DNA of 39,263 nt from Deltaproteobacteria bacterium. Lineage in GTDB: Bacteria > Myxococcota_A > Polyangia > JAAYKL01. The notes below the pieces were generated by a model, which saw only the letters and a program-made list of their open reading frames with translations, was not told the origin of the DNA and made no database searches. Positions 10,299 through 16,847 of the stretch are shown here, in pieces (within the stretch, counting starts at the first letter, position 1; each line of letters opens with the position of its first letter). The stretch covers positions 1 through 39,263 of the forward strand of contig JAQTNF010000038.1 in the NCBI GenBank assembly GCA_028713995.1, read 5' to 3'. The position numbers and the translations under genes are program-made.

Positions 10299-11501
10299 TC
10301 ACTCTCTCGCGGCGCGGCCGAGGCGGGCTGCGACGAGAGAGAGGATGAGCTCGGCGAGCGCGCTCTTCGTGACCGGTCCGGTGCTCTCGCGCAGGCCCGC
10401 GTCGTCCACGATCACGGCCTCGTTCCTGTCGCCGCCGAACGCGTCGCGCGCCAGGTTGCCGACGATGACGTGAGCGCCCTTTGTTTTCAGCTTCGATACC
10501 GCCGCGGCCTCCACATCCTCGGTCTCGAGCGCGAAGCCCACGAGCACGGGCCGCCGCGCGCCCGCGAAGCGTTTGCCGAGACCCGCCAGGATGTCGGGGT
10601 TGCGCACGAGCCGCACCACGCGCTCCTCCTCGGCTTTCCCCTTCTTGAGCTTGTGGTCGCTCGGCTCGGCCGGCCGGAAGTCTGCCACGGCCGCGGTCAT
10701 CACGATCACGTCGCACGAGCCGGCGCGCTCGCCCACCGCGCGCTCCATGTCGAGGGCCGAACGCGCGGGCACGAGCCTCGCGCCCTGCGGGCAGGGCAGG
10801 GACACGGGCCCCGAGACGAGCGTCACGTCCGCGCCGCGCCGGGACGCGGCCTCGGCGATGGCGTAGCCCATGCGGCCGGAAGATCGATTCGAGATGAAGC
10901 GCACGGGATCGATGTCCTCGACCGTGGGTCCTGCGGAAACGAGAATCTTCAGCCCTTCGAGATCGCGGCGTAGCAACTGCTTGGCGGCCACCAGGATCTC
11001 CCCCGGTTCGGCCATGCGCCCGGGGCCGGTTGAGCCGCACGCCAGCTCGCCCGAGCCGGGCTGCACGAACTGCCAGCCGAGCAGCGACGAGAGCGCGTCC
11101 ATGTTGCGCCGTGTGACCGGGTTCTCCCACATGTTCGTGTTCATGGCCGGCGCGGCGAGCACCTTTCCCTTGAACGCCAGGGTCACGGCCGCGATGAGGT
11201 CGTTCGCCCGTCCCGCGGCGCAGCGCGCCAGGTAGTCGGCCGTGGCCGGCGCCACCACCAGCAGGTTGGCCTGCGCGCCCAGCTCCACGTGCTCCACGCG
11301 GCTTCGGGGGCTGCCGAACATGCGCACGTGCACCGGCCGTCCGGACAGGGTCTCGAGCGTGAGGGGCGTGATGAATCGGGTCGCGGCGCGGCTCATGACC
11401 ACCTGCACCGCGTATCCCTCCTTCACGAACAGGCGGCACAGCTCCGCGCTCTTGTACGCGGCGATGCCGCCCGTGACCCCGAGCAGAACGAAGGGCTGCA
11501 T
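10299..11501 (-). CDS. coaBC: Bifunctional phosphopantothenoylcysteine decarboxylase / phosphopantothenate-cysteine ligase
   Basis: Carries out two steps of coenzyme A synthesis: joining cysteine to 4'-phosphopantothenate (CoaB) and decarboxylating the product (CoaC). The N-terminal CoaC flavoprotein half shows GVTGGIAAYK, EHVEL with the catalytic His, APATADYL, PAMNTNMW and the GELACGSTGPGRM lid segment with its active Cys. The CoaB half starts at about residue 185 with LVSAGPTVEDIDPVR and SNRSSGRMG, then AAVADFRP and LKKGK. The 400-aa length is normal. AGGAGG (11508-11513) precedes the ATG. It is convergent with serS and divergent from the AMIN-like gene, with its own promoter candidate. 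Confidence 0.97.
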   Translation of the reverse strand: MQPFVLLGVTGGIAAYKSAELCRLFVKEGYAVQVVMSRAATRFITPLTLETLSGRPVHVRMFGSPRSRVEHVELGAQANLLVVAPATADYLARCAAGRANDLIAAVTLAFKGKVLAAPAMNTNMWENPVTRRNMDALSSLLGWQFVQPGSGELACGSTGPGRMAEPGEILVAAKQLLRRDLEGLKILVSAGPTVEDIDPVRFISNRSSGRMGYAIAEAASRRGADVTLVSGPVSLPCPQGARLVPARSALDMERAVGERAGSCDVIVMTAAVADFRPAEPSDHKLKKGKAEEERVVRLVRNPDILAGLGKRFAGARRPVLVGFALETEDVEAAAVSKLKTKGAHVIVGNLARDAFGGDRNEAVIVDDAGLRESTGPVTKSALAELILSLVAARLGRAARE

Positions 11502-13863: not shown

Positions 13864-15633
13864 TCATTCCATGCGATCCGGAGCGTCCGAGCCCGCGCGC
13901 AGGGCCTCGAGCCTGTCGAGCGCCAGCACGAGCTCCGGGGCGAGCGGGCACTCGATGCGCACCGGGCCGTGGGGACCTTCGAACGCGAGCACCGCGAGGT
14001 GCAGGAACGGACGGGCGAGCAGGCAGGTCTCGGCCAGGAAGCGGTTGGTGCGCGCGTCGCCGTAGCGCTCGTCGCCCAGGATGGGGTGGCCGATGGAAGC
14101 CAGATGCCTTCGGATCTGGTGGCGCCGGCCCGTTTCCGGGAAGCAGCGCACGAGCCCGTAGCCGCCCTTCACGGCCTCGCGCTTGTACCGCGTGACCTCG
14201 TCGCCGCGTCCGCCCACGCGCCCGGCCTTGTGCGGCACGCCGCGCACCAGGGCCAGGTACTCCTTGATCATGGCGCGCGTCTCGAACAGGCGTCCCAGGT
14301 TGCGCAGGGCCTCGCCGCGGGCGAGCAGCACCGGGCCAGAGGTGCCCACGTCGAGGCGGTGAGCGGGCTGAAGATCCGCGAGCCCTGTGGCGGCGCGCGC
14401 GGCCGCGAGCAGCGACGGCTCACCCGGTTCCTGGGGGTGCGTGGGCAGGCAGGCGGGCTTGTACACGGCCATGGCGTCGCCCTCGCGCCACAGGATCTCG
14501 GGCTTCCACGGTGCGCGCTCGAGCAGGGCCACGCTCTCCACGTGCTCCGTGAGCGGGAACATGTCCACCGGCACGACGGCGTGCGTGGCGAGGCCCAACA
14601 CGGCGAGCACGTCGAGGTCGCGGGCCAGGCTGTCGGGCTCGCACGACACGTACGCGACCCGCGCCGGCGCCGCGCGTCCGATGGCGGAGAGCACGGACCT
14701 CGGCACGCCCCGGCGCGGCGGATCGAGCACGATCCGGTCGGCCTCGAGCTCTGCGGCCACGTCCTCGGCCGGCGCCTGTACCACGCGTACGGCCACCCCG
14801 TTCCGCATGGCGCTCGCCACCGCATCGTCGGCCGCGGTGAGAACACTCTCAACGGCCGTGACCGGGCCGGCCTCGCGCGCCAGCGCCACGGCGAACGCGC
14901 CCACGCCCGCGTACAGATCCGCCACGCCCTTGACCGGCCCTTCTGCGGTGTCGAGGAGCCAGGTGCGCACCAGCTCGTGGAGCAGCTCCGCGGCGGCGGG
15001 GTTCACCTGGAAGAACGCGCCCGGCGACAGGCGGAAGGACAGCTCTCCGATGCGCTCCTCGATGAACGCCTCGCCGGCGAGATTGTCGGTGACTCCCGCC
15101 AGCGCCCGGGACACGGGCGCGCGTGGCGCGACCCGCAAACCCACGCCGATCACCTCGGGCCGAACGGACATGAGCTCCTCGGCCAGCTTCCGGAAATGTC
15201 CCTGCGCGGCAGGCCCAGCCGCCACGAGCGTGACGTGGATGCTCGACGTCGCGCGCGACCAGCGCAGATCCACGTGGGGCACCTTCGGGTCGGACGTGGC
15301 GAGCAGCCTTCGCAGCTCCTCCACACACGGCAGGAGCTCCGGCGGAACGACCAGGCAGCCCGGGATGTCCACGACGCGGTGTGTGCCCGGTGCGTAGAGC
15401 CCGATGCGGGCACGATTTGTCCCGGGCGCCGGCTCCACGGCCAGCTTCACCCGCGTCCGGTAGCCCACGGACGACGGCGCCGGCCGGCAGGCCCTGATCT
15501 CCGCGCGGGCGAGGGCAGGAAACCGGGCCAGGGCCGAGGCCACCTTCCGCTTCTTGAGCTCGAGCTGCTCGCTGAGCGGCAGGTCCAGCAAACCACAGGC
15601 GCCGCACAGGGGACGGTGGGGACAGGCGAGCAT
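13864..15633 (-). CDS. Fusion of RlmC/TrmA-type RNA m5U methyltransferase and RluA-type pseudouridine synthase
   Basis: I chose the ATG at 15633 because the [4Fe-4S] cysteines begin there; the open frame continues upstream to 15801 but runs under the LCP promoter. Residues 1-375 match the uracil-C5 methyltransferase family: CPHRPLCGAC (Cys4, 10, 13) plus Cys93, FFQVNP, DLYAGVGAF, DRIVLDPPRRG, nucleophile Cys331 in YVSCEPDSLARD, and Glu365 in the HVES motif. It lacks a TRAM domain, as RlmC does. Residues about 378-589 are an RluA-family domain with YKPACLPTHP and HRLDVGTSG, catalytic Asp428. All key residues of both enzymes are present, so both are probably active on RNA. E. coli RlmC makes m5U747 and RluA makes pseudouridine 746 in 23S rRNA, which suggests a joint target. 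No frameshift is visible at the junction. Confidence 0.93.
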   Translation of the reverse strand: MLACPHRPLCGACGLLDLPLSEQLELKKRKVASALARFPALARAEIRACRPAPSSVGYRTRVKLAVEPAPGTNRARIGLYAPGTHRVVDIPGCLVVPPELLPCVEELRRLLATSDPKVPHVDLRWSRATSSIHVTLVAAGPAAQGHFRKLAEELMSVRPEVIGVGLRVAPRAPVSRALAGVTDNLAGEAFIEERIGELSFRLSPGAFFQVNPAAAELLHELVRTWLLDTAEGPVKGVADLYAGVGAFAVALAREAGPVTAVESVLTAADDAVASAMRNGVAVRVVQAPAEDVAAELEADRIVLDPPRRGVPRSVLSAIGRAAPARVAYVSCEPDSLARDLDVLAVLGLATHAVVPVDMFPLTEHVESVALLERAPWKPEILWREGDAMAVYKPACLPTHPQEPGEPSLLAAARAATGLADLQPAHRLDVGTSGPVLLARGEALRNLGRLFETRAMIKEYLALVRGVPHKAGRVGGRGDEVTRYKREAVKGGYGLVRCFPETGRRHQIRRHLASIGHPILGDERYGDARTNRFLAETCLLARPFLHLAVLAFEGPHGPVRIECPLAPELVLALDRLEALRAGSDAPDRME

Positions 15634-15761: not shown

Positions 15762-15827
15762 GCAGGACGAACGTGATGTTTTTCATGAATGGCCCGCCCA
15801 TTGCAACAATCCCGGGCGGAGGTGACC

Positions 15828-16847
15828 GTGAGAAAAACGCGAATCAACCTGATGGCCCTGGCCGTGCTGGTCTTTCCCGGCATGGCGGGCGCCGAGGAGC
15901 GCGACGACCTCGACGTCATGGACGGCGGGATCCCGGAGGGTGAAGCCGGGGAGGAGCGGTCCGAGCCGGACGGGGCGGCGAGCGTCAATTCCGGCGAGGA
16001 GGAGGTCTTCCTGCTGCTCGGCTTCGACAACAACAAGGGCGTGTGGGGGCGTTCCGACGCGCTCATGATCGTGGTGGCGAGGTACGGGGCGCGCGAGCTC
16101 GGGGCAATCAGCATTCCGCGCGATCTGTGGGTCGACGTTCCGGGCGCGGCGCCCTCGCGCATCAACGTGGTCTACCGGGCGGGCGCGCTCAACGGCGGAC
16201 CCGACGCGGGGCGCGACCTCATCAAGGGCGTGATCCGCGATCAGCTCGGCGTGAGCGCCGATCACGTGGTGGCCGTGGACTTCGGCGGGTTCGTGCGCAT
16301 CGTGGATCAGCTCGGCGGCATCCCGGTCGACGTGCCGTGCGCCATCGAGGATCGCTTCCTCGATCCCACGGCCGAGGGCGGCCGCGTGCCGCTCTCTTTG
16401 CCCGCGGGCCGCAGCGTGCTCGACGGGCGCACCGCGCTGCTCTACTCCCGCTCGCGCCACGGCCGCAGCGACTGGGATCGGGCGAGCCGCCAGCAGGCCC
16501 TGCTGATGGGCCTGCGCGAACGCGCCATGAGCTTCGGCGTGGTGCCCCGGATCCCGGCCCTGTGGGAGGAGATCCGCAAGGATCTCAAGACCGACATCGA
16601 CGCGCGCAGCGCGTTCCGCCTGGCCCGCCTGGCCCTCACCCTTCGCAGGGACAAGCTGCACGGCATCGTGCTGCGGGAGCCCGAGGTGGCCGAGTGGCGC
16701 ACGCCGGACGGCAAGCAGGTGCTCGTGGCCGACAAGGACATGGTCGCCCGCCGCCTGAAGGGCCTCTTTTCGGGCCCGCGACCCGGCACGCGGCGCGGCG
16801 TTTGCCAGCCCCCGGACGCGGCCCTCAGATGGCGTGAGCCGCGCTGA
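15828..16847 (+). CDS. LytR-CpsA-Psr (LCP) family protein
   Basis: The GTG start is preceded by GGAGGTG; an in-frame ATG at 15789 has no such site. A signal peptide (VRKTRINLMALAVLVFPG, cleaved near AGA) sends the protein out of the cytoplasm, followed by an acidic linker. The LCP domain shows GRSDALMIV (about 74-82), SIPRDLW (Arg98, Asp99), RINVVY (Arg111), GGIPVDVPC and SRSRHGRSDWDRASRQQ. These Arg and Asp residues bind the pyrophosphate of a polyprenyl-linked glycan in known LCP proteins, which attach glycopolymers to peptidoglycan or proteins. LCP proteins are best known from Gram-positives but also occur in some Gram-negatives. It may act with the YfhO-like gene that starts 61 bases later. 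Confidence 0.9.
   Translation: MRKTRINLMALAVLVFPGMAGAEERDDLDVMDGGIPEGEAGEERSEPDGAASVNSGEEEVFLLLGFDNNKGVWGRSDALMIVVARYGARELGAISIPRDLWVDVPGAAPSRINVVYRAGALNGGPDAGRDLIKGVIRDQLGVSADHVVAVDFGGFVRIVDQLGGIPVDVPCAIEDRFLDPTAEGGRVPLSLPAGRSVLDGRTALLYSRSRHGRSDWDRASRQQALLMGLRERAMSFGVVPRIPALWEEIRKDLKTDIDARSAFRLARLALTLRRDKLHGIVLREPEVAEWRTPDGKQVLVADKDMVARRLKGLFSGPRPGTRRGVCQPPDAALRWREPR

Follow-up and report, generated by a model that had tools for sequence, protein, structure and literature searches.

A TruC-type pseudouridine-synthase domain fused to an iron-sulphur m5U methyltransferase: an ancient bacterial fusion with repeated loss of the second active site and a probable RNA-docking role

The window, that is, the whole 39,263-nucleotide stretch of deltaproteobacterial DNA that was analysed (contig JAQTNF010000038.1 of assembly GCA_028713995.1), carries on its minus strand a gene whose product joins an Fe-S m5U methyltransferase to a pseudouridine-synthase domain. 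The gene and the features within it are as follows.

13864..15633, minus: fusion gene, 589 amino acids in a single frame, ATG at 15633, stop at 13864
14515..15633, minus: Fe-S m5U methyltransferase domain, residues 1-373, no TRAM (PF05958; TIGR00479 over its cut-off)
15595..15624, minus: Cys4-x5-Cys10-x2-Cys13 of the Fe-S cluster, kept in 99/102, 102/102 and 102/102 fused proteins, respectively
15355..15357, minus: Cys93, fourth cluster ligand, kept in 106/106 fused proteins
14641..14643, minus: Cys331, catalytic nucleophile in YVSCEP, kept in 124/124 fused or truncated relatives
14536..14538, minus: Glu366, general base, kept in 124/124 fused or truncated relatives
13891..14499, minus: TruC-type pseudouridine-synthase domain, residues 379-581 (about) (PF00849; tree and AU test; model and Foldseek)
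14335..14361, minus: HRLDVGTSG motif with Arg426 and the catalytic Asp428 (14350-14352), Asp kept in 81/106 and Arg in 57/106 full-length fusions
14104..14127, minus: RRHQIRRH motif, residues 503-510, with a TruC-like RRH (alignments)
14020..14091, minus: GHPILGDERYGDARTNRFLAETCL, residues 515-538, kept even in many relatives that have lost the active site

A CoaBC-like flavoprotein gene (window 10302-11501, minus) and a divergent LytR-CpsA-Psr gene (15789-16844, plus) lie nearby, and the fusion neighbours that were scanned include no other recognisable RNA-modification gene.

The preliminary description of this DNA reported a fusion of an m5U methyltransferase and a pseudouridine synthase in one frame; the fusion is real and its coordinates were right, the strand, which had not been given, being minus. 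The frame has no internal stops, its homologues align end to end, and it matches both PF05958 (tRNA_U5-meth_tr, 51.2 bits; cut-off 23) and PF00849 (PseudoU_synth_2, 70.5 bits; cut-off 26.8). The same two-domain architecture is present in dozens of other genomes. A whole-genome search of 59 relatives yielded full-length fusions in three genomes of other genera (60%, 60%, and 51% identity) and a contig-cut homologue at 65% identity, and surveys of the class (318 genomes) and the phylum (379 genomes), most of them drafts, added dozens more, some in single-contig assemblies of 10-16 Mb. The source genome is itself a draft in 218 contigs, but recurrence of the architecture in so many related genomes, single-contig ones included, rules out an assembly artefact and leaves a negligible probability that a chimera or a frame-shift has joined two genes here. 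The viral contigs searched contained no relative of the fusion, and the architecture is not described in the literature searched, which consisted of open-licence papers, most subscription journals lying outside its scope. In three fusions, L148 (G298), L149 (G283), and L150 (G205), the methyltransferase part is longer by about 40-60 residues and a long C-terminal extension follows the pseudouridine-synthase domain. Two fused paralogues are present in each of G292 (L160/L161), G293 (L181/L180), G214 (L164/L165), and G218 (L129/L167); the members of these pairs differ in the state of the pseudouridine-synthase motif, which in G218 is HRLD in L129 and KIEA in L167.

Among the individual residues named previously, Cys4, Cys10, Cys13, Cys93, Cys331, and Asp428 stand as numbered, but the general base assigned to Glu365 is residue 366, the equivalent of RlmCD E443 by family alignment (PMC5614603). 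The lack of a TRAM domain had also been read correctly: Pfam detects none, TIGR00479 is matched only from model position 57 onwards, and none was seen by eye in the in-frame stretch upstream of Met1. The window protein scores 207.6 against TIGR00479, a broad rumA model with a cut-off of 183.55, and with respect to the METHYLTRANSFERASE type this broad rumA model is the only one that it passes. In NCBIfam, the RlmD/RumA models (208 and 167 bits) score above the RlmC models (147, 128, and 90), and the curated RlmC equivalog cut-offs are missed (146.7 against 558, 127.6 against 553, and 90 against 429.5); for the fused proteins generally, the RlmD and RlmC model scores are close. The features of the RlmD/RlmCD type found in the window protein are the four cluster cysteines, the catalytic Cys and Glu, and the match to a curated model, but not the TRAM domain. 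The earlier reading of an rRNA-type Fe-S methyltransferase is upheld, whereas the term “RlmC-like” is weakly supported and fits less well than RlmD/RumA by score. An RlmC role becomes plausible by elimination, because TRAM is absent and the source genome encodes a second, RlmD-like enzyme (L003).

The fusion arose once and is ancient in this bacterial phylum. In the methyltransferase-domain tree (129 rows, rooted with E. coli RlmC), the 107 fused proteins occupy one side of one branch with an SH-aLRT value of 96; with other classes added the fused proteins still form one clade (SH-aLRT 98), and a single change between the unfused and fused states is needed. All trees come from “quick” searches in which SH-aLRT is the sole measure of support, and L003 and the E. 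coli rows form long branches. Unfused orthologues have an N-terminal extension that is missing from the fusions. In L169 this extension covers the TRAM part of the TIGR00479 model, the match beginning at its position 1, and in Pfam two of five unfused orthologues give sub-threshold TRAM matches (19.5 and 16.6 bits; cut-off 21) and the others none. The extension and its absence from the fusions therefore suggest that TRAM was lost at the N terminus and the pseudouridine-synthase domain gained at the C terminus.

The attached domain of the window protein contains the catalytic set of the RluA superfamily, Asp428 in HRLDxxTSG, Tyr459, and the basic RRHQIRRH (RKHQLRRH in E. coli TruC and RSHQLRVH in RluA), and the previous reading of intact catalytic motifs in both halves of this copy is upheld. 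The RluA-like identity proposed for the domain is not. NCBIfam ranks TruC (88.4) ahead of RluC (86.3) and RluA (49.6), the curated TruC cut-off being missed (88.4 against 328), as it also is by the stand-alone TruC-like genes of these genomes. A scan of contigs with two short conserved peptides yielded mostly ordinary RluA-family genes, of use only as tree references. In a 37-row tree, the fused domains form one clade that is the sister branch of a TruC clade containing E. coli TruC and the stand-alone TruC-like gene of the source genome, with a joint support of 99. A tree constrained to place the fused domains beside RluA is worse by 66.9 log-likelihood units (AU p = 0.00015), so that RluA orthology is rejected. 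E. coli TruC is the tRNA psi65 synthase, and RluA acts on 23S psi746 and tRNA psi32. With kinship to TruC, the main argument for position 746 falls, and the suggested pairing of positions 746 and 747 is left without support. The stand-alone TruC-like gene of the source genome (L002; G000:C5:67302-67982, minus) has an in-frame TAG between its halves, and a pseudogene and a sequencing error are here indistinguishable. In the structure model, the pseudouridine-synthase half has a pLDDT of about 95 and RluC and RluA as its nearest folds (Foldseek), but the methyltransferase half is modelled poorly because few relatives were usable in the alignment; since confidence is restricted to one half, the model does not give the orientation of the domains. 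Among the nearest relatives in the window clade, the pseudouridine-synthase domain is 67% conserved as compared with 56% for the methyltransferase. To judge from its sequence, the domain of the window copy is probably active on a uridine that it reaches while docked.

Within the phylum, the two active sites have had different fates. Cys331 and Glu366 of the methyltransferase are kept in 107/107 fused proteins and in 124/124 when truncated relatives are included, whereas the catalytic Asp is absent from about a quarter of the full-length fusions (present in 81/106), a loss that is if anything undercounted because some aligned Asp residues are doubtful, such as that of RRFAPDGGTSG in L178. Parsimony gives 13 changes of its state, and the well-supported branches taken alone give at least 7. 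Installation of both marks in one binding event, previously suggested as something that the fusion may do, cannot be its general purpose when the pseudouridine-synthase site has been lost repeatedly and the methyltransferase site never. In 12 relatives belonging to other families of the phylum (L300-L311, families f43, f45, f49, f51, and f52), the catalytic half of the domain is absent and the methyltransferase is followed by about 130-200 residues that carry GHPVAG...TxRFFxEKAGLVRPFVHV...APLHGDL and the strongly conserved FFAEKAGLVRPFVHV motif; this remnant shares homology with the domain's C-terminal half, E values running from 1e-7 to 5e-16 as compared with 0.16 for the best shuffled control. 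In two close motif-less pairs, purifying selection acts on the non-catalytic domain as it does on the methyltransferase: dN/dS is 0.057 in the domain and 0.071 in the methyltransferase for L167/L241 (Asp to Glu, VLKIEAGTSG), and 0.040 and 0.044, respectively, for L178/L269. Values are 0.10-0.17 in both halves for Sorangium-type pairs with HALD and are higher, reaching 0.505 (L156/L157), for Asp-less pairs of greater divergence, the confident estimates being those from a few close pairs.

The complement of m5U enzymes bears on the RNA target. TrmFO is present in the source genome (492 bits; cut-off 428.65) and in most of the fusion genomes searched, but was not found over the cut-off in G016, G024, G042, G026, G159, or G117-G119; TrmA was not found over the cut-off in the 17 genomes searched. 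The second enzyme of the source genome, L003, scores 240 and 218 bits with RlmD models as compared with 110 and 102 with RlmC models, which makes it clearly RlmD-like, and it has a TRAM domain (29.9 bits). A search of 32 genomes, some with the fusion and some lacking it, gave L003-like matches in 31, although in some of these the best match may have come from the orthologue of the fused methyltransferase, fused or not. The presence of TrmFO and of the TRAM-bearing L003 in the same genome makes rRNA a likelier substrate of the fused methyltransferase than tRNA, with 23S rRNA the most likely. RlmD/RumA produces 23S m5U1939, RlmCD/YefA both m5U747 and m5U1939, and E. coli RlmC 23S m5U747. U747 would then be the vacant known site, and is our best guess, by elimination, for the target. 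The rRNA sequence does not discriminate between targets, because every genome tested, whether it has the fusion or not, conserves U746, U747, and U1939, and the helix 35 loop GUUGAAAA together with U1939 is present in relatives regardless of it. The 23S search used E. coli 23S DNA as the query, with which the 23S rRNA of the source genome was not found; among 8 genomes with an intact and 3 with an Arg-lost synthase motif, a comparison of low power, no 23S uridine tracks the motif state. Several members of families f11 and f26 (the genomes of L201, L202, L203, L205, L206, and L211) have A rather than U at position 955 of 23S rRNA, a target of RluC in E. coli.

The reading that best joins these results, to which we give slightly better than even chances, is that the fusion is a conserved m5U methyltransferase whose TruC-derived domain docks RNA and, in this copy, probably also pseudouridylates. 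A TruC-derived domain at the C terminus of the Fe-S, S-adenosylmethionine-dependent methyltransferase would have replaced the TRAM domain of the unfused relatives. The conserved output would be m5U, likely in 23S rRNA (U747), with the separate RlmD-like enzyme serving U1939; the conserved job of the attached domain, as a substitute for TRAM, would be to bind the RNA and present it to the methyltransferase in the right orientation, and pseudouridylation would be an ancestral second activity that some lineages have retained. Docking of RNA is thus the probable role of the attached domain, with catalysis as an option; we infer this role from its conservation, and the domain could instead stabilise the protein. 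An evolutionary course that seems to us evenly balanced between right and wrong is that, after one early fusion, the domain took the role of the lost TRAM and became a “pseudo-pseudouridine-synthase” dock independently in many lineages, some of which, including that of the window, would be bifunctional.

Other explanations account for parts of the evidence. A true bifunctional enzyme of helix 35, making psi746 and m5U747 in one binding event with a TruC-type domain that has converged on the RluA site, would fit the two intact catalytic sites in the window, the UU at 746-747 of the relatives, the HRLD or HRID kept in many of them, and a synthase domain that is no less conserved than the methyltransferase in the window clade. 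It is nevertheless unlikely, as placement of the TruC-type domain with RluA is rejected, the repeated loss of Asp428 is hard to explain were psi746 the point, and the UU is equally conserved in genomes without the fusion. The TruC ancestry of the domain might instead indicate a tRNA T-arm enzyme forming m5U54 and, in line with TruC specificity, pseudouridine 65; archaeal tRNA m5U54 enzymes are RumA-like, and some related genomes (G042, G026, G159, G024, and G016) in which TrmFO was not detected may need another enzyme for m5U54, TrmA not having been detected over its cut-off in any of the 17 genomes searched. However, TrmFO exceeds its cut-off in the source genome and most fusion genomes searched, and a separate TruC-like gene exists beside the fusion in many genomes (the source genome's own copy with its in-frame TAG), which renders a T-arm role quite improbable. 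It is very doubtful that two independent activities, directed at unrelated RNAs or distant sites, were joined for dosage or co-expression: the motifs of both halves are intact and nothing found fixes a common substrate, but purifying selection has long maintained second halves that are not catalytic, which speaks for their serving the first.

If a methyltransferase with a docking, optionally catalytic partner is the correct reading, the fusions form a natural enzyme series running from the fully catalytic to the half-domain, in which a domain that modifies RNA becomes one that binds it and the contribution of a scaffold besides its chemistry becomes directly testable. The union of an m5U methyltransferase with a pseudouridine synthase would itself be an addition to the architectures in the literature searched. 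The fusions are also candidate rRNA m5U enzymes for the phylum, in which, to our knowledge, none has been assigned.

Among characterised enzymes, RlmD/RumA and RlmCD/YefA share with the window protein the Fe-S cluster of four cysteines, the SCxP nucleophile, and the Glu base, but the window protein differs in lacking TRAM and in having a TruC-type C-terminal domain. E. coli RlmC is, like it, a TRAM-less Fe-S enzyme with a methyltransferase part of similar length; however, the two are only 25.9% identical, and the window protein is fused and falls far under the RlmC equivalog cut-offs. E. coli TruC represents the nearest characterised clade and has the RRH and NR...LH signatures in common with the fused domain, which forms a separate branch, is fused, and has repeatedly lost its active site in relatives. 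With E. coli RluA, the fused domain has in common the superfamily fold and the HRLD motif, although the AU test rejects membership. Two-domain RNA-modification fusions with a C-terminal RluA-superfamily domain include Vibrio TrcP, a cytidine deaminase with a C-terminal RluA-family domain, in which the N-terminal part tethers the substrate for the C-terminal part (PMC9553926); TrcP differs in having a deaminase as the partner and tRNA-Tyr as the substrate, whereas what is conserved in the window fusion is the methyltransferase activity. E. coli RlmKL, a fusion of rRNA methyltransferases, provides a precedent for one domain helping the other by RNA binding (discussed in PMC4605293), but in that enzyme, unlike the window fusion, both domains are methyltransferases and there is no pseudouridine synthase.
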